Source: a virus
Direction: 5' to 3' (one strand)
Length of the DNA: 20,288 nt
IMG/VR virus record: IMGVR_UViG_3300034152_000263
Span: 1 to 20,288 of that record
Shown here: positions 1,901 through 20,288 of the stretch, piece after piece
Numbering within the stretch: the first letter of the stretch is position 1
Layout of the letters: each line of letters opens with the position of its first letter
Translations under genes and position numbers: made by a program
The notes under the pieces: model-generated
Seen by the model: only the letters and a program-made list of their open reading frames with translations
Database searches by the model: none
Told to the model about the DNA's origin: nothing

Positions 1901-4108
1901 ATGGCGACTCCTCAATTATCTCCAGGCGTACTCGTCAGGGAAGTTGATTTAACTACAGGAAGAGTTGATAATGTTTTAGATAATATTGGCGCAATTGCAG
2001 GTCCTTTTCCCATCGGTCCAGTAAACGAGCCTATTGATATTGCAACCGAACAAGATTTAATTAATACTTTCGGAAAACCACTCTCTACAGATGCTCAATA
2101 CGAGTACTGGATGAGTGCATCTTCTTTCCTCTCATACGGAGGAGTTTTAAAAGTAGTTAGATCTGGCGGAAGCACACTCAACAATGCTAATGCTGGTGTT
2201 GGTATTGCATCAACTACTGCACTTAAAATCGAAAACTACGACGATTATCTTGAGAACCATGCTGATGGTGAAGATAACAACTATACCTGGGCTGCAAAGA
2301 ACCCAGGAACATGGGCAAATGGTCTGAAGGTTTGTGTAATCGACGACATCGCAGATCAAACTCTTGGTATTACAACAACCGATCTTAGCACTGCTGGTGC
2401 AAGAGTTGGTTATGGAATTACCGCATCTCTTGTCGGTCAAGTAATTCCTGGAGCAGGAACAACCGCAACTTTTGATGGTTATCTAAAGGGCATCATTACT
2501 GGCGTTTCTACAGATGCTACTAACAGCGTTTCTACAATTGATGTAAAAGTTGTTTCAAGAGTATCTGCAGCAGGAACAGAAACCAAGATTACATATGCTG
2601 AAGGAAGTGCAATTGCATCTTTCGATACTTCAGATACTGTATTCTTTGTCAATAACTCAGGTATTAACACAGGAACATTTGGTGCTGGTTCTGGAACGAC
2701 TCCAGCAACAGCAGTTGACTGGTATGATCAACAGACACTTGGACTGACAAACTCCACAATTTTCTGGAAGTCTATCGCACCAAAACCAGTTTCAAACCAG
2801 TATGTTCTGGAAAGAAATGGTAAGAATGATGGAATTCATGTTGTTGTTGTTGATGATCTCGGAACAATTACTGGTAATCAGGGAACACTTCTAGAGAAGC
2901 ATGTAAGCCTTTCCAAAGCAAAAGATGCTGTTTCTTCAGTCAATTCACCACAAAAAATCTGGTACGAAGGTTTCGTTGCAGATTTCTCTCCAAATGTTTA
3001 TGCAGGAAGCAATCCTTCCTCTGCAGAAGATGTAAATTGGGGAACAGTACCTGTAGCAACAGGATTCTCGACAGACTTTACTGCAGTAACAACTGGAGAT
3101 GGTCTCTGGGGACTTGATGCTCAAGACGTAACTTATTCTGCAGTTGGTAACATTACATATACTCTTGGTGGTGGGGTTGATTATTCTGCCAATAAGGGAA
3201 TGACTGCAACTCTTGGCGATCTTATCACAGCATACGAAGAGTTCAGTAATAAGGATGAAGTAGAGGTTGATTACTTAATCATGGGCCCTGGTCTCTCAAA
3301 TCGTTTTGATAGTCAGGCAAAAGCAAACTATCTAATTTCTCTTGCAAATGAGAGAAAGGATTGTATTGCTACTGTTGGTCCACATAGATCTGATCTAATT
3401 GGAGTAACCAACACAACTACTCAGACAACAAATCTCATCAACTACTTTAGCACATTATCTTCTTCATCATTCTCAGTATTTGATAGTGGTTACAAGTATA
3501 CCTATGATAGATTTAATAACAAGTTCCGTTATGTACCAACAAATGCTGACGTTGCTGGTTTAATGACCCGCACGAACATTGTTGCATATCCTTGGTTCTC
3601 GCCTGCTGGCCAGCAAAGAGGTATCATTAACAATGCTATCAAACTTGCATATAACCCAAGCAAGGCTCAGAGAGATCAACTTTATCCGCAGAGAATTAAC
3701 CCAGTTGTAACACAACCTGGAGTTGGTACACTTCTGTTTGGAGATAAGACTGCTCTCGGTTATGCATCCGCATTTGATAGAATCAACGTTCGTCGCCTAT
3801 TCCTCACAGTTGAACAGGCACTACAAAGAGCGGCTGAATCACAACTCTTTGAACTCAATGATGAGTTAACAAGAGCAAACTTCAAGAACATTGTTGAACC
3901 ATACCTCCGCGATGTTCAGGCAAAGAGAGGTCTATATGACTTCCTGGTTGTTTGCGATAGCACAAATAACACTCCAGATGTTATTGATAATAATGAGTTC
4001 AGAGCGGACATCTATCTGAAACCAACCAAGTCTATCAATTATGTCACCCTCACGTTCGTTGCAACGAGAACTGGTGTAAGTTTTGAAGAAGTCGCTGGAC
4101 GCGCTTAA
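1901..4108 (+). CDS. gp18: Tail sheath protein gp18
   Basis: The contractile sheath subunit, 735 residues (659 in T4). The N-terminus (LSPGVLVREVDLT) is the typical opening of myovirus sheath proteins. The C-terminal part carries the conserved sheath core: a FDRINVRRLFLTVE segment, a region on terminal attachment (YLRDVQAKRGLYDF) and a final strand with a threonine-rich VTLTFVATR sequence. The variable middle, rich in Gly, Thr and Ser (about residues 150-450), likely forms the surface domains. A strong ribosome binding site and a late promoter precede it, as expected for a protein made in well over a hundred copies per virion. It is followed by the tail tube gene, the usual pairing. Confidence 0.95.
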   Translation: MATPQLSPGVLVREVDLTTGRVDNVLDNIGAIAGPFPIGPVNEPIDIATEQDLINTFGKPLSTDAQYEYWMSASSFLSYGGVLKVVRSGGSTLNNANAGVGIASTTALKIENYDDYLENHADGEDNNYTWAAKNPGTWANGLKVCVIDDIADQTLGITTTDLSTAGARVGYGITASLVGQVIPGAGTTATFDGYLKGIITGVSTDATNSVSTIDVKVVSRVSAAGTETKITYAEGSAIASFDTSDTVFFVNNSGINTGTFGAGSGTTPATAVDWYDQQTLGLTNSTIFWKSIAPKPVSNQYVLERNGKNDGIHVVVVDDLGTITGNQGTLLEKHVSLSKAKDAVSSVNSPQKIWYEGFVADFSPNVYAGSNPSSAEDVNWGTVPVATGFSTDFTAVTTGDGLWGLDAQDVTYSAVGNITYTLGGGVDYSANKGMTATLGDLITAYEEFSNKDEVEVDYLIMGPGLSNRFDSQAKANYLISLANERKDCIATVGPHRSDLIGVTNTTTQTTNLINYFSTLSSSSFSVFDSGYKYTYDRFNNKFRYVPTNADVAGLMTRTNIVAYPWFSPAGQQRGIINNAIKLAYNPSKAQRDQLYPQRINPVVTQPGVGTLLFGDKTALGYASAFDRINVRRLFLTVEQALQRAAESQLFELNDELTRANFKNIVEPYLRDVQAKRGLYDFLVVCDSTNNTPDVIDNNEFRADIYLKPTKSINYVTLTFVATRTGVSFEEVAGRA

Positions 4109-4119
4109 TCCACCTATAC

Positions 4120-4127
4120 GATAAATA
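4120..4127 (+). promoter_or_regulatory. Late promoter box before gene 19
   Basis: GATAAATA matches NATAAATA, in the 39-base gap between genes 18 and 19. The strong ribosome binding site AAGGAGG at 4132-4138 lies 9 bases before the gene 19 ATG; most other genes here have only weak sites. Confidence 0.65.
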
Positions 4128-4147
4128 ACACAAGGAGGACTTAAAAA

Positions 4148-4720
4148 ATGGCACATACAATTCAGGACTTCAAATCAACTCTAGTTGGGGGCGGTGCCCG
4201 CCCTAATCTATTTGAAGTTGTACTAACTGGAGAATTTCCAGGTGCTGGAGAAGCAAGCTACAGTGCAGACAACTTCTCAATTCTTTGTAAAGCAGCACAA
4301 CTTCCAGCATCAAATATTTCACCAATTGAAGTTCCTTTTAGAGGAAGAATTTTTAAAGTAGCAGGTGATCGTACTTTTGATACTTGGACAGTTACTGTTA
4401 TTAATGACACGGATTTCACCATCCGCACTGCGATGGAAAATTGGATGCAACAGATTGGTCAGTATGCCGATGGTTCAGGTTTTACTGATCCAGCAGACTA
4501 TCAAGTAGATGCTGTTGTTAAGCAATTTACAAGACAATCAACAAACACAGGTGCTGTTGACGGTTCTGGTCTTGAAGTCGCTAAGCAATATAAGTTTTAT
4601 AGCATCTTCCCAACCAATATTTCTGCTATTGATTTATCATATGATAGTTCAGATACTATTGAAGAATTCTCAGTAGAATTTCAAGTTCAATATTGGTCTC
4701 CATTATCAGGCGAAAACTGA
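4148..4720 (+). CDS. gp19: Tail tube protein gp19
   Basis: The subunit of the rigid inner tail tube through which DNA is ejected, 190 residues (163 in T4). Visible family features are the N-terminal NLFEVVLTGEFPG strand, the conserved segment with LCKAAQLPASNISPIEVPFRGR, the DTWTVTVINDTDFTIRTAMENWM helix-strand region, and the C-terminal strand EFSVEFQVQYWS. Its own late promoter and the strongest ribosome binding site in the window suit the high copy number needed. Position between sheath and portal is standard for the group. Confidence 0.95.
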   Translation: MAHTIQDFKSTLVGGGARPNLFEVVLTGEFPGAGEASYSADNFSILCKAAQLPASNISPIEVPFRGRIFKVAGDRTFDTWTVTVINDTDFTIRTAMENWMQQIGQYADGSGFTDPADYQVDAVVKQFTRQSTNTGAVDGSGLEVAKQYKFYSIFPTNISAIDLSYDSSDTIEEFSVEFQVQYWSPLSGEN

Positions 4721-4723
4721 TCT

Positions 4724-4731
4724 AATAAATA
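4724..4731 (+). promoter_or_regulatory. Late promoter box before gene 20
   Basis: AATAAATA, just after the gene 19 stop and about 30 bases before the gene 20 ATG. No obvious Shine-Dalgarno sequence precedes gene 20; the leader is AT-rich. Confidence 0.6.
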
Positions 4732-4761
4732 GTCCAAAGATCAGAAACAAAATAATAAATT

Positions 4762-6441
4762 ATGGCTAAACTTTTTGGTTTCTCTATTGAGGATAACGAA
4801 CCAAAATCACCCACTACAGTATCCCCCGTTCCTCCTAATAATGAGGACGGGGTTGATCATTATTTGACTAGTGGGTTTTTTGGTTCGTATGTTGATATTG
4901 AGGGGGTTTATAGAACTGAATTTGATTTAATCAAAAGATATCGTGAGATGGCCCTACATCCAGAATGTGATAGTGCCATTGAAGATATTGTAAATGAAGC
5001 AATTGTTTCAGATACCAATGACACTCCGGTAGAGATTGAACTTTCAAATCTCAATGCAAGTGATGGATTGAAAAAGAAAATTAGAGAAGAGTTTAAGTAT
5101 ATCCTAGAGTTATTGGATTTTGATAAAAAGTCTCACGAAATTTATAGGAATTGGTATATTGACGGTAGACTTTACTATCACAAAGTAATTGATTTAAAGA
5201 GACCTCACGAAGGCATTCAAGAACTTAGATACATTGATGCACTCAAAATGAGATATGTGCGTCAACATAAAAAGACTGATAATGATAGGTTTAGATCTGC
5301 AAACATTTCAGTTCAGGATAATCCAATGGGTTATAAGTTTCCTGAAATTGAAGAATATTTTGTATATAATCCAAAATCTGGATATCCAGTTGGCAACCCA
5401 GGAGCAATGGGAGGAAACACTGGAATTAAAATTGCAAGAGATGCAGTCACCTATTGCACATCAGGTCTTGTAGATAGAAATAAAGGATCAACTCTTTCAT
5501 ACCTCCATAAGGCAATTAAATCTCTCAATCAACTTCGCATGATTGAAGATAGCCTTGTTATCTACAGACTATCCCGTGCACCAGAAAGAAGAATTTTCTA
5601 TATTGATGTTGGTAATCTACCTAAAGTAAAAGCAGAACAATATCTTCGTGATGTCATGATGCGTTATCGTAATAAGTTGGTATATGATGCATCTACTGGA
5701 GAAATTCGTGATGATAAAAAGTTCATGAGTATGTTAGAAGATTTTTGGCTTCCTCGTCGTGAAGGTGGTAGAGGAACTGAAATCTCAACACTTCCAGGTG
5801 GCCAAAATCTTGGAGAAATCACCGATATCAAATACTTCCAAGAAAAACTTTATCGTTCACTAAATGTTCCTTCATCAAGAATTGGTGGTGAGGGTGGATT
5901 TAACCTAGGAAGATCTTCGGAAATCTTAAGAGATGAAGTTAAGTTTAGTAAGTTTGTAGGTCGTCTTAGAAAGAGATTTTCAAACATGTTTAATGACATG
6001 CTAAAAACTCAACTCATTCTCAAGAATATAATTACTCCCGAAGATTGGGAGATTATGAGTGATCATATTCAATATGATTTCTTATATGATAATCATTTCG
6101 CAGAACTAAAAGAAAGCGAATTGATGAATGAGAGATTGAATATGGTTGCTACAGCAGAACCATATATTGGAAAGTATTACTCTCAAGACTATGTTCGTCG
6201 CAAAATTCTTCGCCAAACTGATCAAGAGATCATTGAACAAGATACTCTCATTAAAAAAGAAATTAAAGAAGGTATCATTCCAGATCCAAATGCACCAATT
6301 GATCCCGAAACAGGTGCTCCACTAGAAGAACCAAAAGGAAAAATGGGAGATTTGGGAAAACCAGTTCAAGAGCCTGATTTAGAAAAGGATGCTGAGATTG
6401 TAGAACCGTCAGCAAAAGAATTTAAATCTGGAGAAATTTGA
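4762..6441 (+). CDS. gp20: Portal vertex protein gp20
   Basis: The portal forms the dodecameric ring at one capsid vertex that starts head assembly, docks the terminase and later joins the tail. It has 559 residues (524 in T4). Recognisable gp20 segments include the N-terminal RYREMALHPECDSAIEDIVN region, RLSRAPERRIFYIDVGNLPK, and GGEGGFNLGRSSEILRDEVK before the long helices. The last 60 residues are charged and Pro-rich, and probably form the flexible crown end. Its TGA stop overlaps the promoter box of the next gene. This gene is the common marker for cyanophage diversity, and the identification is secure. Confidence 0.96.
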   Translation: MAKLFGFSIEDNEPKSPTTVSPVPPNNEDGVDHYLTSGFFGSYVDIEGVYRTEFDLIKRYREMALHPECDSAIEDIVNEAIVSDTNDTPVEIELSNLNASDGLKKKIREEFKYILELLDFDKKSHEIYRNWYIDGRLYYHKVIDLKRPHEGIQELRYIDALKMRYVRQHKKTDNDRFRSANISVQDNPMGYKFPEIEEYFVYNPKSGYPVGNPGAMGGNTGIKIARDAVTYCTSGLVDRNKGSTLSYLHKAIKSLNQLRMIEDSLVIYRLSRAPERRIFYIDVGNLPKVKAEQYLRDVMMRYRNKLVYDASTGEIRDDKKFMSMLEDFWLPRREGGRGTEISTLPGGQNLGEITDIKYFQEKLYRSLNVPSSRIGGEGGFNLGRSSEILRDEVKFSKFVGRLRKRFSNMFNDMLKTQLILKNIITPEDWEIMSDHIQYDFLYDNHFAELKESELMNERLNMVATAEPYIGKYYSQDYVRRKILRQTDQEIIEQDTLIKKEIKEGIIPDPNAPIDPETGAPLEEPKGKMGDLGKPVQEPDLEKDAEIVEPSAKEFKSGEI

Positions 6442-6447
6442 TAAATA
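6440..6447 (+). promoter_or_regulatory. Late promoter box overlapping gene 20 stop
   Basis: GATAAATA shares two bases with the TGA stop of gene 20 (TGATAAATA). It lies about 27 bases before the gp67-like ATG, which is a workable leader length. Confidence 0.6.
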
Positions 6448-6473
6448 ACTGAGTATCAATCATTTATATTAAG

Positions 6474-6662
6474 ATGGAAGAACTTCTAGATATGATTGTT
6501 GCTGATGAATCACCATCTCAAATCAGTGACAAAATCAAAGATATGTTATTTGCAAAGTCTGCAGAAAAAGTAGATGCCTTTAGACCTGTAGTAGCCTCAG
6601 ATACTTTCGGTCAAGAAGATATCGACGTAGAAGACGAAGAGTATATCGAAGATCAAGAGTGA
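6474..6662 (+). CDS. gp67: Prohead core protein, gp67-like
   Basis: A 62-residue acidic protein in the place where T4 has gene 67 (80 residues), the small prohead core component needed for correct head shape and processed by the gp21 protease. The N-terminal half is helical (MEELLDMIVAD...ISDKIKDMLFAKSAEKVDAF) and the C-terminal half is strongly acidic (DIDVEDEEYIEDQE), the same two-part layout as T4 gp67. Similarity is by layout and position rather than long identical motifs. T4 gene 68 has no visible counterpart here; a different gene follows. No clear ribosome binding site is seen, but a late promoter box lies just upstream. Confidence 0.7.
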   Translation: MEELLDMIVADESPSQISDKIKDMLFAKSAEKVDAFRPVVASDTFGQEDIDVEDEEYIEDQE

Positions 6663-6663
6663 T

Positions 6664-6671
6664 TATAAATA
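6664..6671 (+). promoter_or_regulatory. Late promoter box, exact T4 consensus
   Basis: TATAAATA, identical to the T4 late consensus, directly after the gp67-like stop and 26 bases before the ATG of the 187-aa gene. Confidence 0.7.
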
Positions 6672-6697
6672 ATTAACATCAAATAATTATAGTAATA

Positions 6698-7261
6698 ATG
6701 GCGCATAATCCGGTAGGCATTTGCACATCTATAACATCATCAACATCGACTACACAATCAACAGTGTTTAGTCATCAAACTCCTTATTTGAGAGTTGTTG
6801 TAGTTAGTGCAGATGCTCATATTGCAATTGGTACAAATCCAATCGCAACACCTGCAAATTATTATGTTACTCAAGGAGAACCTGAAATTATTAGTCTTGG
6901 AAAACCAATGACTCAAAGAGTTGTTGGAATTACTACAGGTGCTACTACTACAATTGATTTCCCTGAAGGAACAGGATCACCATTTAATGTTGGAGATGCC
7001 GTACAACTGACTGTAACTGGACAGTCTGGATACGATTTCTCAAACAAAATTGTACTTAGTGTTAACGATTCATCCGGAGTTGCTGGTTATTTTGGAACAA
7101 GAATTGTTGTTGATGCGGATACATCTTCGGGAGCTCCTTCCCCAACCAGAGATGGTTTGGGCACATATGCAGAACTAAGAGGAAACTTCAAAGTTGCTGC
7201 ATTAGGTACTGGAAGTGGAAAAGTCTATTTACAACAAGTTCAAACTAGCGGATCAGTCTAA
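6698..7261 (+). CDS. Probable virion protein, 187 aa, function unknown
   Basis: I do not recognise a T4 counterpart. The protein has no Lys-rich or enzymatic motif; it is rich in Thr, Ser, Gly and Val and alternates like a beta-structured particle protein. Residues near 35-60 (VVVVSADAHIAIGTNP...YYVTQGEPEIISL) follow a pattern common in small phage structural or decoration proteins, in which a measured strand is followed by a position-dependent loop. The middle carries a GDAVQLTVTG strand and the end a Gly/Ser-rich strand pair. It sits in the gene 68 slot between gp67-like and the protease, behind an exact late promoter, and overlaps gene 21 by one base (TAATG). A capsid-associated role is inference from context. 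Confidence 0.75.
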   Translation: MAHNPVGICTSITSSTSTTQSTVFSHQTPYLRVVVVSADAHIAIGTNPIATPANYYVTQGEPEIISLGKPMTQRVVGITTGATTTIDFPEGTGSPFNVGDAVQLTVTGQSGYDFSNKIVLSVNDSSGVAGYFGTRIVVDADTSSGAPSPTRDGLGTYAELRGNFKVAALGTGSGKVYLQQVQTSGSV

Positions 7262-7911
7262 TGAAACTAATCAGAGAAGAAATAGAAAAGGTAGAAGTTA
7301 TTACTGAGAGTGTGAATGGTAAGAAAAACCTTTTCATTAAAGGCATTTTTCTACAGGCAGAGCAGGTAAACAGAAACGGTAGAGTATACCGTATGCCTGT
7401 AATGGAGCGTGAAGTTAAGCGTTATAATGAAAACTATGTTCAAAAAGGACGTGCTCTCGGGGAACTTGGTCATCCAGATGGTCCTACAGTTAACCTCGAT
7501 AGAGTTTCCCATAAAATTATAGATCTTCAGAGAGAGGGAAATAATTTTATTGGAAAGGCTCAAATTCTTTCAACTCCAATGGGAAAGATTGCAGAATCTC
7601 TTCTTAAAGATGGAGTTACTCTTGGAGTTTCCTCTCGCGGTATCGGATCACTAAGAGAAACAAGAGAAGGACATAAAGAAGTTGGTGAAGATTTCATGCT
7701 CGCAACTGCTGCTGATATTGTAGCAGATCCATCTGCACCTGATGCATTTGTTCAGGGAATTATGGAGGGAAAAGAGTGGATTTGGGATGGCGGTATTCTT
7801 CGTGAAAAGTATGCACAACAAACGAAGAAAAGAATTAACACATTAGTTGATCAAAGAATTTTAGAAGAGCATAAACTTAACTTATTCAACGAATTTCTAG
7901 CAAATCTTTAA
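7261..7911 (+). CDS. gp21: Prohead core protease gp21
   Basis: The serine protease that sits in the prohead core and cleaves scaffold and capsid proteins during maturation. It has 216 residues (212 in T4). The likely catalytic His is H71 in GELGHPDGP and the nucleophile lies in the GVSSRG motif (S124/S125), with conserved acidic residues in the ADIVADPSAPDAF segment. The N-terminal IKGIFLQAEQVNRNGRVY block is typical of the T4 protease family. Translation is probably coupled to the upstream gene through the TAATG overlap; there is no separate promoter box. The predicted substrates gp22 and gp23 follow directly. Confidence 0.93.
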   Translation: MKLIREEIEKVEVITESVNGKKNLFIKGIFLQAEQVNRNGRVYRMPVMEREVKRYNENYVQKGRALGELGHPDGPTVNLDRVSHKIIDLQREGNNFIGKAQILSTPMGKIAESLLKDGVTLGVSSRGIGSLRETREGHKEVGEDFMLATAADIVADPSAPDAFVQGIMEGKEWIWDGGILREKYAQQTKKRINTLVDQRILEEHKLNLFNEFLANL

Positions 7912-17174: not shown

Positions 17175-17410
17175 ACCACCAAAAAACAATGACAACTCCA
17201 AACTGGCAACATAACTCTGGGAAACCTCAGAAACGAAAACTTAAACCACAAGCACTGAGGCAAGCAAAAGCAAGACTCAGACAGTTTAAGAAGCAGCACA
17301 TGGATCGCCCAAAAGGCGATCTTTCGTTTTATAGTGAGTTCATACGAAACGAATCAAATGCCAGTCTCTCACGAAATCAAGTCTCAACTTGCGAAACTGC
17401 TTGCTACTGA
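17171..17410 (+). CDS. Small basic ORF after gene 46, doubtful
   Basis: A possible 79-residue product whose ATG overlaps the gene 46 stop (ATGA); ATG 17189 is an alternative. The first 50 residues are very basic (QKRKLKPQALRQAKARLRQFKK), as in a small nucleic-acid-binding peptide. Two things argue against the full length: an intrinsic terminator hairpin lies inside it at 17303-17330, and its last 18 codons overlap the CobT-like gene in another frame. It may be real but end in an overlap, or the basic segment may be the remnant of a longer gene. I do not recognise a family. Confidence 0.4.
   Translation: MNHQKTMTTPNWQHNSGKPQKRKLKPQALRQAKARLRQFKKQHMDRPKGDLSFYSEFIRNESNASLSRNQVSTCETACY
17303..17330 (+). 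terminator. Intrinsic terminator after gene 46
   Basis: GATCGCC (17303-17309) pairs with GGCGATC (17315-17321) around the loop CAAAA, followed by TTTCGTTTT. The stem is GC-rich in an AT-rich context. It would end the gene 47-46 transcript about 130 bases after gene 46. Confidence 0.75.
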
Positions 17411-19529
17411 AGATCTAGTTGTTGAGCATCGTCGGGTTGAAACTGCTCAGTTTAATGTTCACACTCGGGTTCTGACTCTTCCTTTGTGGGAGAAAGCAAG
17501 TAATACTGTTTATGATTTGCTTGTCGGACATGAAGTTGGGCACGCACTTTTTACTCCCGATGAGGACTGGAGTGAAAATACAAAGATTCCTCAACAGTTT
17601 GTGAATATTGTTGAGGATGCTCGTATTGAAAAACTGATGAAACGCAAGTACATGGGACTTGCAAAGACTTTTTATAACGGATATCGTGAACTTAGTGATC
17701 AAGATTTCTTTTCTCTAGAGAATGAAGATATCTCCAAGATGAATCTTGCAGATCGTGCAAATCTGTTTTTTAAGATTGGTGGTTATGTTGATATTCCCAT
17801 TGAAAGTGGAGAAGAGAAAGAAATTATCGATACAATCTCAGATACGGAAACATTTGCTGATGTACTAATTGCTGCCGAACTTCTTTACAAACATTGTAAA
17901 AAAGAAAAAGAAGAACAAAAAGTTGATGATGTTTCAGTTCCACCACAACAATCTGGTGGTGGAAATCAAAATCAAGAACAAGATTACAAACAGGAAGAAA
18001 CTCCACAAGAAGAGAATGGCAATGAGAATGCCAATGATCAAAATAATGCCAACAAAATTACTGGTGGGCAATCTATTCCAGAAACTAATTCTCAGAATGA
18101 ACCAGAAGCCAAAACTGTAAATAAACTTGAAGAGAGTATTCGTGAATTGGTTTCAAAGAATGGAATCGATAATGTTTATGTTGAAGTTCCGAAATTAAAT
18201 CTTGATACTGTTATTGCAAAAAATGAAGAAGTTCATAAAGTAATTGATGATTTCTTTACACATCAACAAAAGTATTGTGATGAATATAATCAAAATAATA
18301 ATAATACACTTCGTAATATTTACAAAGAGTCTGATTCAGAATACCGCAAGTTTAAGGTATCTGCACAGAAAGAAGTAAATTATCTTGTAAAAGAGTTTGA
18401 GTGTCGTAAGTCTGCGGATGCATATGCTCGTTCTTCCACGGCTCGTACAGGAGTTCTTGATACTGCTCGCCTTCATACTTACAAATATAATGAAGATCTT
18501 TTCAAGAAAGTAACCGTGATTCCTAATGGAAAAAATCATGGACTTATCTTTATTCTTGATTGGAGTGGATCAATGTCACAAGTTCTTTTGGATACTTGTA
18601 AGCAATTGTTTAATCTGATTTGGTTCTGTAAAAAAGTTTCTATTCCATTTGAGGTTTATGCCTTTACAAATGATTGGAACCGAGCATATTATGATCAAGA
18701 AAAGAATGAATATGTTAATGCAAATATGCAACCACATTATGAGAAGAAAGAGGGACTTCTTGCAATTGATGATGATTTTAATCTGATGAATCTTCTTACT
18801 AGTAAAGTTTCTTCAAGAGATCTTGAAAAACAACTCATTAATGTATGGCGACTTGCTACTTATTTTAATAATGCCTATGGAAGTACATATTCTATCCCAG
18901 ACAAATTGAACCTTTCTGGAACTCCTTTAAATGAAGCATTAATTTGTCTTCATCAGATTCTTCCTAATTTTCAAAAAGAAAATAAACTTCAGAAAGTTCA
19001 ATGTATTATTCTGACTGATGGTGAAGCAAATCAACTTTCACATCATGTTGAGGTGAATCGGCATTGGGAATCTGAACCTTATATTGGAAATCGTAGAATT
19101 AATCCAGATCAATCTTTTATTCGAGATCGTAAACTGGGAACTACTTATTCTGTTGGTTACAATTATCATGAATTTACAGATTCTCTTCTTCGCAACTTGA
19201 AAGATAAATTTTCTTCAGTAAACTTCATTGGTATTCGGGTTCTTGCTTCTCGGGATGCAAATAGGTTTATCAACCTTTATCTTTCTTATGGTGAAAAGGA
19301 GTACGATAGAGTTCAGAATGAATGGAAAAAAATGAAGAGTTTTACTATTACTAATTCTGGTTATGATGCTTATTTTGGATTGTCTTCAACAGCACTTTCT
19401 CAAGAATCTGAATTTGATGTGAAAGAAGATGCAACAAAATCTCAGATTAAATCTGCATTTGTTAAAAGTTTGAAGACTAAGAAACTAAATAAAAAAGTTC
19501 TTGGTGAATTTATTTCTCTAGTAGCATGA
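17358..19529 (+). CDS. CobT-like protein: HExxH domain plus VWA domain
   Basis: A 723-residue protein from ATG 17358 (an in-frame GTG at 17334 is less likely). The N-terminal part has a metalloprotease-like motif, GHEVGHALF (H58, E59, H62), followed about 25 residues later by NIVEDARIE (E86, R89, E91), as in zinc gluzincins and in CobT/NorD relatives. Residues about 190-255 are a flexible Gln/Asn/Glu-rich linker. The C-terminal VWA domain has a full MIDAS: DWSGS (D401, S403, S405), T522 in SGTPLNEAL and D554 in LTDGEANQ. Such proteins normally work with a MoxR/CobS-class AAA+ ATPase, which is encoded 200 bases downstream. Cobaltochelatase function is not shown; a remodelling or maturation role is equally likely. 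Confidence 0.85.
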   Translation: MPVSHEIKSQLAKLLATEDLVVEHRRVETAQFNVHTRVLTLPLWEKASNTVYDLLVGHEVGHALFTPDEDWSENTKIPQQFVNIVEDARIEKLMKRKYMGLAKTFYNGYRELSDQDFFSLENEDISKMNLADRANLFFKIGGYVDIPIESGEEKEIIDTISDTETFADVLIAAELLYKHCKKEKEEQKVDDVSVPPQQSGGGNQNQEQDYKQEETPQEENGNENANDQNNANKITGGQSIPETNSQNEPEAKTVNKLEESIRELVSKNGIDNVYVEVPKLNLDTVIAKNEEVHKVIDDFFTHQQKYCDEYNQNNNNTLRNIYKESDSEYRKFKVSAQKEVNYLVKEFECRKSADAYARSSTARTGVLDTARLHTYKYNEDLFKKVTVIPNGKNHGLIFILDWSGSMSQVLLDTCKQLFNLIWFCKKVSIPFEVYAFTNDWNRAYYDQEKNEYVNANMQPHYEKKEGLLAIDDDFNLMNLLTSKVSSRDLEKQLINVWRLATYFNNAYGSTYSIPDKLNLSGTPLNEALICLHQILPNFQKENKLQKVQCIILTDGEANQLSHHVEVNRHWESEPYIGNRRINPDQSFIRDRKLGTTYSVGYNYHEFTDSLLRNLKDKFSSVNFIGIRVLASRDANRFINLYLSYGEKEYDRVQNEWKKMKSFTITNSGYDAYFGLSSTALSQESEFDVKEDATKSQIKSAFVKSLKTKKLNKKVLGEFISLVA

Positions 19530-19663
19530 ACTGGAAAGAAATTGCACTTGCTTCTGAAACCGATCCGAAAGTTCAAAAGGTTCTCCGAGAGGGACCAAAA
19601 AAACTTACGGATGCATGGATGCTCATGGCACTCCGATACAAGTATGGACGGTATGCGAAGTGA
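19526..19663 (+). CDS. 45-aa ORF overlapping the CobT-like stop
   Basis: A 45-residue reading frame beginning MNWKEIALASETDPK and ending ALRYKYGRYAK. Its ATG overlaps the stop of the CobT-like gene (ATGA), the coupling used repeatedly in this genome, and it ends 4 bases before a terminator stem. The sequence looks like a compact, charged helical peptide with a central LTDAWMLMAL amphipathic stretch and a basic, aromatic end. No family is recognised. Its coupling suggests joint expression with the CobT-like protein. Good placement and plausible composition support it, but so short a frame could arise by chance. Confidence 0.6.
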   Translation: MNWKEIALASETDPKVQKVLREGPKKLTDAWMLMALRYKYGRYAK

Positions 19664-19667
19664 CTAC

Positions 19668-19692
19668 AGGGGATTCCAAGCATCCCTTTTTT
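19668..19692 (+). terminator. Intrinsic terminator before cobS
   Basis: AGGGGAT (19668-19674) pairs with ATCCCTT (19682-19688, one G-U) around a 7-base loop, with a U-run to 19692. It closes the CobT-like transcript and separates it from cobS. Confidence 0.75.
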
Positions 19693-19696
19693 GTTC

Positions 19697-19702
19697 TATA
19701 AT
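19697..19702 (+). promoter_or_regulatory. Candidate -10 box before cobS
   Basis: A perfect TATAAT lies 5 bases after the terminator and 30 bases before the cobS ATG. The best -35 at 17 bases, TTCCAA, matches only 3 of 6 and lies in the terminator stem-loop. A restart of transcription is needed here, which supports it, but the box may need an activator. Confidence 0.4.
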
Positions 19703-19732
19703 AACTTCAGTTGAAACAAACAACCCAAACTC

Positions 19733-20288
19733 ATGGCTCTCTCAACCGACTACATTAGTTCTTCTCTGAAAAATCTGTACGGTGAAAACATTACTGCTGC
19801 TGATGTTCGTGCCTGGTGTGCAATGAATGAGACTTCATATCAAACCGTCTCTAAAAAACTTGATCAATTTAAAGTTGGCCGTGGAAAGTGGAATCTGACT
19901 GTGCAAGAAAAACTGGAACAAACCTATCAATCACCTGCAGCTCTTCCTGCTGTTGAGCAAAACCTTATCCCCCATAAAGATGATACCTTCGTCAAGTTTG
20001 GTAATTTTGGTGACATTAAAAAAATTATCCAATCCCGACTATTCTATCCGACTTTTATTACTGGGCTTTCGGGTAATGGTAAAACGTTTTCGGTGGAGCA
20101 AGCATGTGCTCAACTTAAGCGTGAAATGATTCGTGTCAATATTACAATTGAAACTGATGAAGATGATCTTATTGGTGGATTCCGTTTGGTTAATGGCGAA
20201 ACCGTTTGGCATAATGGTCCAGTCATCGAAGCCTTGGAGCGCGGTGCGATTCTATTGCTTGACGAAATTGACTTGGCTTCCAACAAAA
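19733..20288 (+). CDS. cobS: CobS-like AAA+ ATPase, 3' end missing
   Basis: A MoxR-class AAA+ ATPase of the type annotated as cobS in most T4-like cyanophages. In bacteria CobS is the ATPase subunit of aerobic cobaltochelatase in vitamin B12 synthesis. The first 185 residues are in the window; the frame runs off the end. The N-terminal 65 residues form a small domain, then Walker A GLSGNGKT (111-118), the MoxR-type segment NITIETDEDDLIGGFRLVNGE, and Walker B ILLLDEID (173-180) follow. The MoxR family remodels targets together with a VWA partner, which fits the gene just upstream. Whether the phage protein helps make B12 or acts on a phage target cannot be told from sequence. Confidence 0.88.
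   Translation, partial: MALSTDYISSSLKNLYGENITAADVRAWCAMNETSYQTVSKKLDQFKVGRGKWNLTVQEKLEQTYQSPAALPAVEQNLIPHKDDTFVKFGNFGDIKKIIQSRLFYPTFITGLSGNGKTFSVEQACAQLKREMIRVNITIETDEDDLIGGFRLVNGETVWHNGPVIEALERGAILLLDEIDLASNK

Follow-up and report, generated by a model that had tools for sequence, protein, structure and literature searches.

The cobS gene belongs to the core genes of T4-like cyanophages and is routinely listed among the auxiliary metabolic genes for vitamin B12. At the locus described here, a CobS-like AAA+ gene follows a gene for a VWA protein that also carries an HExxH motif, which raises the question whether such a pair serves cobalt insertion or rather a machine that remodels or processes other proteins. 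The window, i.e. the whole stretch of DNA analyzed, is a virus record of 20,288 bases and a fragment of a T4-like (Kyanoviridae) phage. Its genes, named by order and similarity, are arranged as gp18, gp19, gp20, gp21, gp22, gp23, uvsY, uvsW, gp55, gp47, and gp46, and the final two large genes are the 723-aa HExxH-VWA gene and then the CobS-like AAA+ gene. The 3′ part of the window contains the following genes:

17358..19529, + strand: 723-aa HExxH-VWA protein (PHROG 459 'peptidase')
19526..19663, + strand: 45-aa ORF overlapping the VWA stop codon (read from sequence)
19733..20288, + strand: CobS/NorQ-like MoxR AAA+ ATPase, cut by the window end (AAA_5 and PHROG 249 matches)

For the VWA gene, ATG 17358 is the sensible start because the in-frame GTG at 17334 overlaps a −10-like TATAGT (17330–17335). 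Gene 147 of phage Bellamy is a small ORF at the same place as the 45-aa ORF.

Architecture and conservation of the two proteins

The HExxH motif and the downstream ED.R.E described in the earlier note were found in the 723-aa translation exactly as given there (H58-E-V-G-H62, followed by E86-D87-A-R89-I-E91), and the residues of a complete MIDAS were located likewise (D401-W-S403-G-S405, T522, D554). The protein matched PHROG 459 'peptidase' at 1.5e-266, and its family is also labelled 'peptidase' as T4-GC 146; a Pfam search yielded no useful family match and a PDB sequence search no match. The following parts of the protein were distinguished:

17358..17927, + strand: N-terminal zincin-like domain, residues 1–190 (predicted; AF2 model, Foldseek)
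17922..18098, + strand: low-confidence Glu/Gln/Asn-rich linker, residues 189–247 (AF2 pLDDT <50)
18537..19415, + strand: VWA domain, residues ~394–686, with MIDAS D401/S403/S405/T522/D554 (motif, NorD structural match)
19437..19526, + strand: C-terminal tail, residues 694–723 (conserved in the consensus of homologues)

This architecture and the invariance of the motif residues are direct observations. H58, E59, H62, E86, D87, and R89 were invariant in all 70 distinct homologues, with identities down to 27%, and the same six residues were invariant in a 47-sequence alignment of the N-domain, bar the neighbours of D87. HEVGH plus ED.R was also present in six out of six divergent cyanophage isolates (Syn19, S-P4, P-HM1, S-CRM01, S-RIM14, ACG-2014b), so that the conservation check proposed earlier for H58, E59, H62, and E86 turned out positive; judged from these alignments, the conservation of HExxH is not due to chance. 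The MIDAS residues matched in 69 of the 70 homologues. The exception is phage XG4, in which the VWA with DxSxS and the HExxH part are encoded by separate neighbouring ORFs in swapped order and the ATPase is split, too (the record is marked unverified). Distant proteins encoded next to AAA+ genes also carry HExxH followed by an acidic motif (DLP6, pCS1, SSU5, RHph_N1_10, pCAR1, JSF27, HVTV-1, Jams, Perlina), and HExxH was absent from the CobT of a Paraburkholderia plasmid. The distant phages nickie and ANB28 have lost both histidines (SEISK and REVST, respectively) and keep the E59 position and the gene pair, which suggests that the machine can work without the zinc site there.

For the N-domain, the AF2 model (pLDDT 85, pTM 0.81) predicts strands at residues 21–42, a helix at 49–65 holding both histidines, and E86 in a helix at 79–97. 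In the model, the HExxH helix is thus followed by a helix with an acidic residue, E86, as a putative third zinc ligand, and the predicted fold is zincin-like. In a Foldseek comparison with the PDB, zincins occupied ranks 1–6 and 8–15, and ArdC, selecase, abylysin, Wss1, and IrrE/PprI headed the list. Probabilities reached 0.99, but the best E-value was 0.098 and none was <0.001. The comparison with viral models gave 19 matches <0.001, with phage and haloarchaeal virus proteins named 'CobT' or VWFA as significant matches. For the full-length model (pLDDT 74), the top PDB match was the NorD VWA of the NorQD complex (9qhe_G; E=1.1e-4, probability 1.0). Since the NorD C-terminus contacts NorQ (PMC13036017), the C-terminal tail (residues 694–723) is by analogy a possible ATPase-docking element.

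Of the ATPase ORF, which begins at 19733, the window covers the first 185 aa. This part contains a Walker A motif (GLSGNGKT) as well as a Walker B motif (LLLLDEID) and matched Pfam AAA_5 (3e-13) and PHROG 249 (5e-61). A complete relative matched CobS (9ujv, 1e-20) and NorQ (9qhd, 5e-14) in the PDB. Across 73 sequences, S. meliloti CobS among them, K121 (Walker A), D181/E182 (Walker B), and R248/R288/R303 (Bellamy numbering) did not vary. A cyanophage MoxR ATPase has been placed in the CGN subfamily (PMC9964418), and cobS is on the list of cyanophage core genes (PMC3037559).

Linkage, neighbourhood, and promoters of the pair

The pairing of the VWA gene with the CobS/MoxR-type gene, noted before for this DNA, extends to its relatives. 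By tblastn against 50,697 phage records, 463 records had the VWA protein and 462 had the ATPase, with an organism breakdown identical bar one fragment. The ATPase gene lay ≤1.4 kb downstream of the VWA gene in 112 of 125 loci, and 12 of the 13 loci without a nearby ATPase end ≤0.9 kb from the VWA gene. Among the loci long enough, the genes were therefore found apart only once, in L118 (ATPase on the contig of the VWA gene, at a distance of ~28 kb), and not in most relatives. The genes also stay paired in S-CRM01 and DLP6, where they are located outside the gp46–gp45 interval. A search for related loci with the Ochrobactrum phage protein and a tblastn search of this protein in plasmids found none.

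The neighbourhoods, compared as a survey of examples and not as a statistical test, showed a recurring pattern. Kyanoviridae including Pelagibacter and Ochrobactrum phages have the order gp46, pair, gp45, in some with small genes between. DNA polymerase III alpha follows the pair, adjoining or within ~1.6 kb, in SSU5, pCS1, nickie, RHph_N1_10, and ANB28, and DNA ligase precedes it in SSU5, nickie, and RHph_N1_10. The pair is flanked by primase and thyX in DLP6, is followed by helicase and Pol I genes at ~3–4 kb in JSF27, and lies within a region of replication and nucleotide genes in HVTV-1. No replication neighbour was present in the stretch read for S-CRM01, Gordonia phages, and Rhodococcus phages. 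The recurrence of related pairs in replication modules is a new observation of this study; like the linkage and the promoter type, it was read directly from the genomes.

Upstream of both genes, the following elements were identified:

17303..17330, + strand: terminator-like hairpin (GATCGCC-caaaa-GGCGATC) followed by TTTCGTTTT, between the gp46 side and the VWA gene (read from sequence)
17330..17335, + strand: −10-like TATAGT, 28 nt before the VWA ATG (conserved in homologous upstreams)
19669..19702, + strand: terminator-like hairpin (GGGGAT...ATCCC with T-run) followed by TATAAT (19697–19702), before the cobS-like gene (conserved upstreams)

TAT[AT]AT occurred ≤50 nt upstream in 51 of 57 distinct VWA upstreams (expected 1.9), mostly at −29/−28, and TATAAT in 52 of 55 distinct cobS upstreams (expected 2.3); since the upstreams are related sequences, these counts mean conservation and not independent events. 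The late motif ATAAATA was found in none of the 57 VWA and none of the 55 cobS upstreams. In many related loci, the −10 elements of both genes are preceded by terminator-like hairpins. A TTGAC box stands ahead of the VWA −10 element in several divergent isolates, and the cobS upstream of S-CRM01 has no clear TATAAT. Within the window, ATAAATA is located 27–45 nt before gp18, gp19, gp20, the gene at 6698, gp22, and uvsW; it is missing before the VWA/cobS pair and also before gp23 and gp21. The location of both genes behind conserved sigma70-type −10 elements, without the late motif that precedes virion genes, is likewise a new observation.

From these upstream regions, early or middle transcription is predicted for both genes. 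Own terminator-like hairpins, sigma70-type promoters, and replication neighbours together indicate that the pair most likely acts early or in the middle phase, and not in B12 synthesis or virion assembly. Data on expression timing of the pair were found neither in PMC7238727 nor in transcriptome work on SAR11 phages, which does not include HTVC008M, nor elsewhere.

A proposed machine and alternative roles

With moderate confidence, we favour a MoxR-type AAA+/VWA machine that includes a zincin-like domain of its own and probably remodels and cleaves a target in the early or middle phase. The CobS-like ATPase would form a ring on which the VWA domain docks, and the MIDAS metal of the VWA domain would grip an acidic site of the target. 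ATP-driven movement could then remodel the target and hand it to the N-terminal zinc domain, by which it would be cleaved. Host proteins or protein complexes on replicating DNA are candidate targets. The earlier preference for a remodelling or processing machine over cobalt insertion thus stands as the better fit to the zincin-like model, the NorD-like VWA, and the linkage; ring, docking and complex, metal binding, proteolysis, timing, and target are what we infer. More tentatively, and with low probability in this specific form, the pair, expressed early, might be the viral equivalent of DNA-linked zincin proteases that work with AAA+ assistance (Wss1/SPRTN together with Cdc48/p97) or of ArdC-like anti-defence proteins. 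Such an ATP-driven protease, common to phages and haloarchaeal viruses whose replication machineries are unrelated, would clear or dismantle complexes of proteins on the viral DNA during its replication, or proteins of host defence or host replication.

A doubtful alternative is a virion assembly chaperone and maturation protease, by which the particle would be assembled and structural proteins trimmed (PMC7824862). The combination of HExxH, VWA, and AAA+ motifs suits processing, and the same study cites the Acidianus two-tailed virus, whose tail assembly involves a MoxR-vWA system; however, in contrast to the structural genes of the window, neither gene is preceded by the late motif in any of its distinct upstreams (57 for VWA, 55 for cobS), a gp21-type prohead protease is already assigned by position at 7261–7911 of the window, and many pairs are located in replication modules rather than structural ones. 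Neither protein is named in the passages covered of two cyanophage virion proteomes (PMC9146016; PMC10665884). A protein that is expressed early may still take part in assembly, and the promoter and neighbourhood arguments are in this respect indirect.

It has also been proposed that the pair replaces the cobaltochelatase subunits CobS/CobT as a viral CobST, uses host CobN, and raises cobalamin synthesis (PMC8651126), a reading to which we give little weight. Among solved structures, true CobS is one of the nearest relatives of the phage ATPase, an enterobacterial phage-plasmid relative matches both CobT Pfam domains, and the control cyanobacterium S. elongatus has CobN and no CobT match, so that a gap exists for a viral CobST to fill and host CobN might be used in cyanobacteria. 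On the other hand, the window VWA protein matched neither PF06213 (CobT) nor PF11775 (CobT_C) up to E=1, while S. meliloti CobT matched both; CobS_N (PF12556) is present in S. meliloti CobS but was absent from four complete Kyanoviridae-type ATPase relatives; HExxH was found in 0 of 80 cellular (alphaproteobacterial) CobT proteins vs. its invariance in the phage family; and CobN was encoded in 0 of 9 complete phage or plasmid genomes. A B12 role of the pair is unlikely because of these four results. Related pairs are also found in Salmonella, Escherichia, Cronobacter, and Vibrio elements, whose hosts are not known to have aerobic CobN. Furthermore, the pair is present in HTVC008M, whose host clade SAR11 is reported to be B12-auxotrophic (PMC9296465). 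The view that 'peptidase' is a mistaken annotation (PMC8651126) is not supported, given the invariant HExxH and the zincin-like fold predicted by the model.

According to this evidence, the 'peptidase' label has real support, and the pair is unsuited as a marker of viral B12 metabolism unless such a role is proven. Instead, a core gene pair that abounds in marine viruses becomes a testable candidate for an ATP-driven protease with clear point mutants, for which early or middle expression is predicted. Insertion of Fe, Co, or Mg into enzymes is the task of known MoxR-VWA pairs. A metal-insertion or activation machine, in which HExxH would hold a metal for delivery and not for catalysis, could be argued from NorQD, which inserts non-haem iron (PMC9976466, PMC13036017) and contains the closest solved VWA in NorD, and from relatives that retain the pair without the histidines, but is improbable here since E59 occupies the position of the zincin catalytic base, is invariant and kept even in nickie and ANB28, and the predicted N-domain fold is closest to peptidases.

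Comparison with known systems

CobS/CobT (S. meliloti; PDB 9uka) resembles the phage pair in combining a CobS-like ATPase with a neighbouring VWA/MIDAS protein whose acidic linker is disordered, and V-E-Q-A-R-V-E of CobT stands in register with V-E-D-A-R-I-E of the phage protein. It differs in that CobT typically has H[D/N]xxxH and in none of the 80 sequences HExxH; the phage ATPase is without CobS_N, and the phage genomes searched are without CobN. Homology of the window N-domain to CobT is not claimed here: hhalign gave a probability of 2.7% (E 0.017), though with the expected register, and HMMER with a profile of cellular CobT N-domains was not significant. The pCS1 protein matched PF06213 (4e-29) with an intact HExxH; this bridge to CobT was not reproduced with the narrower N-domain profile, so that a common origin is only a lead.

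The minigluzincins selecase and abylysin, ArdC, and Wss1 share the HExxH helix in a zincin-like fold. They are otherwise built and without VWA, and are fold matches only, with 8–14% identity and E ~0.1–0.5. NorQ/NorD is similar in that NorD is the top structural match of the VWA domain and the phage ATPase is NorQ-like; it differs in its target, nitric oxide reductase, and a search of one NorD paper turned up no mention of HExxH, zinc, or a metalloprotease.

Compared by description, a close likeness is a pair of jumbo phages (group 2.2, ASV44729.1/ASV44728.2), in which a MoxR-type AAA+ gene lies beside a vWA protein with a metallopeptidase domain N-terminal to the vWA, and for which virion assembly was proposed (PMC7824862); the promoters and neighbours of the window pair point to an earlier role. 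This type of pair has therefore already been published and the idea itself is not new. Added here are conservation and structural support for the cyanophage zinc site, membership tests for CobT and CobS, the promoters, and the replication neighbourhood.

Relatives in a plasmid, a phage-plasmid and a 484-kb phage

L127:5914-10049, conjugative plasmid pCAR1 region
L128:2186-4513, VWA relative in Cronobacter phage-plasmid pCS1
L132 about 2209-7800, VWA/AAA+ region of an uncultured 484-kb phage

Besides a MoxR-like ATPase and a DUF3150 protein, plasmid pCAR1 encodes a NorD-like protein that carries both HExxH and ED.RIE. The Cronobacter phage-plasmid protein is matched by Pfam CobT (4e-29) and CobT_C (6e-104) and carries an intact HExxH; it may connect the viral zincin-VWA proteins with cellular CobT. 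In the 484-kb phage, a Clp-type unfoldase-like ORF adjoins the HEGSH-VWA ORF and the AAA+ ORF.

Altered and separated pairs

L218:2974-5058, pair locus of phage nickie
L219:2986-4971, pair locus of phage ANB28
L084:5685-9222, pair region of Pseudoalteromonas phage XG4 (record marked unverified)
Window 19526-19663, + strand, 45-aa ORF overlapping the VWA stop

In phages nickie and ANB28 the pair persists close to DNA pol III alpha, but HExxH is replaced by SEISK and REVST, respectively, so that both histidines are lost and the glutamate is kept. Their VWA proteins are apparent pseudo-enzymes occupying the same slot. XG4 encodes the HExxH and VWA parts on distinct ORFs whose order is swapped, and its ATPase is divided over two ORFs. 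Only at locus L118 does the ATPase not adjoin the VWA gene; there the two share a contig but are about 28 kb apart. Phage Bellamy has a small ORF at the same place as the 45-aa ORF.

Annotation in phage S-CREM1

OP535465.1, 155959-157560, VWA homologue H182

This homologue is labeled 'RNA binding protein'. A MoxR ATPase was described as a unique gene of S-CREM1 (PMC9964418), whereas the pair is core in cyanophages.
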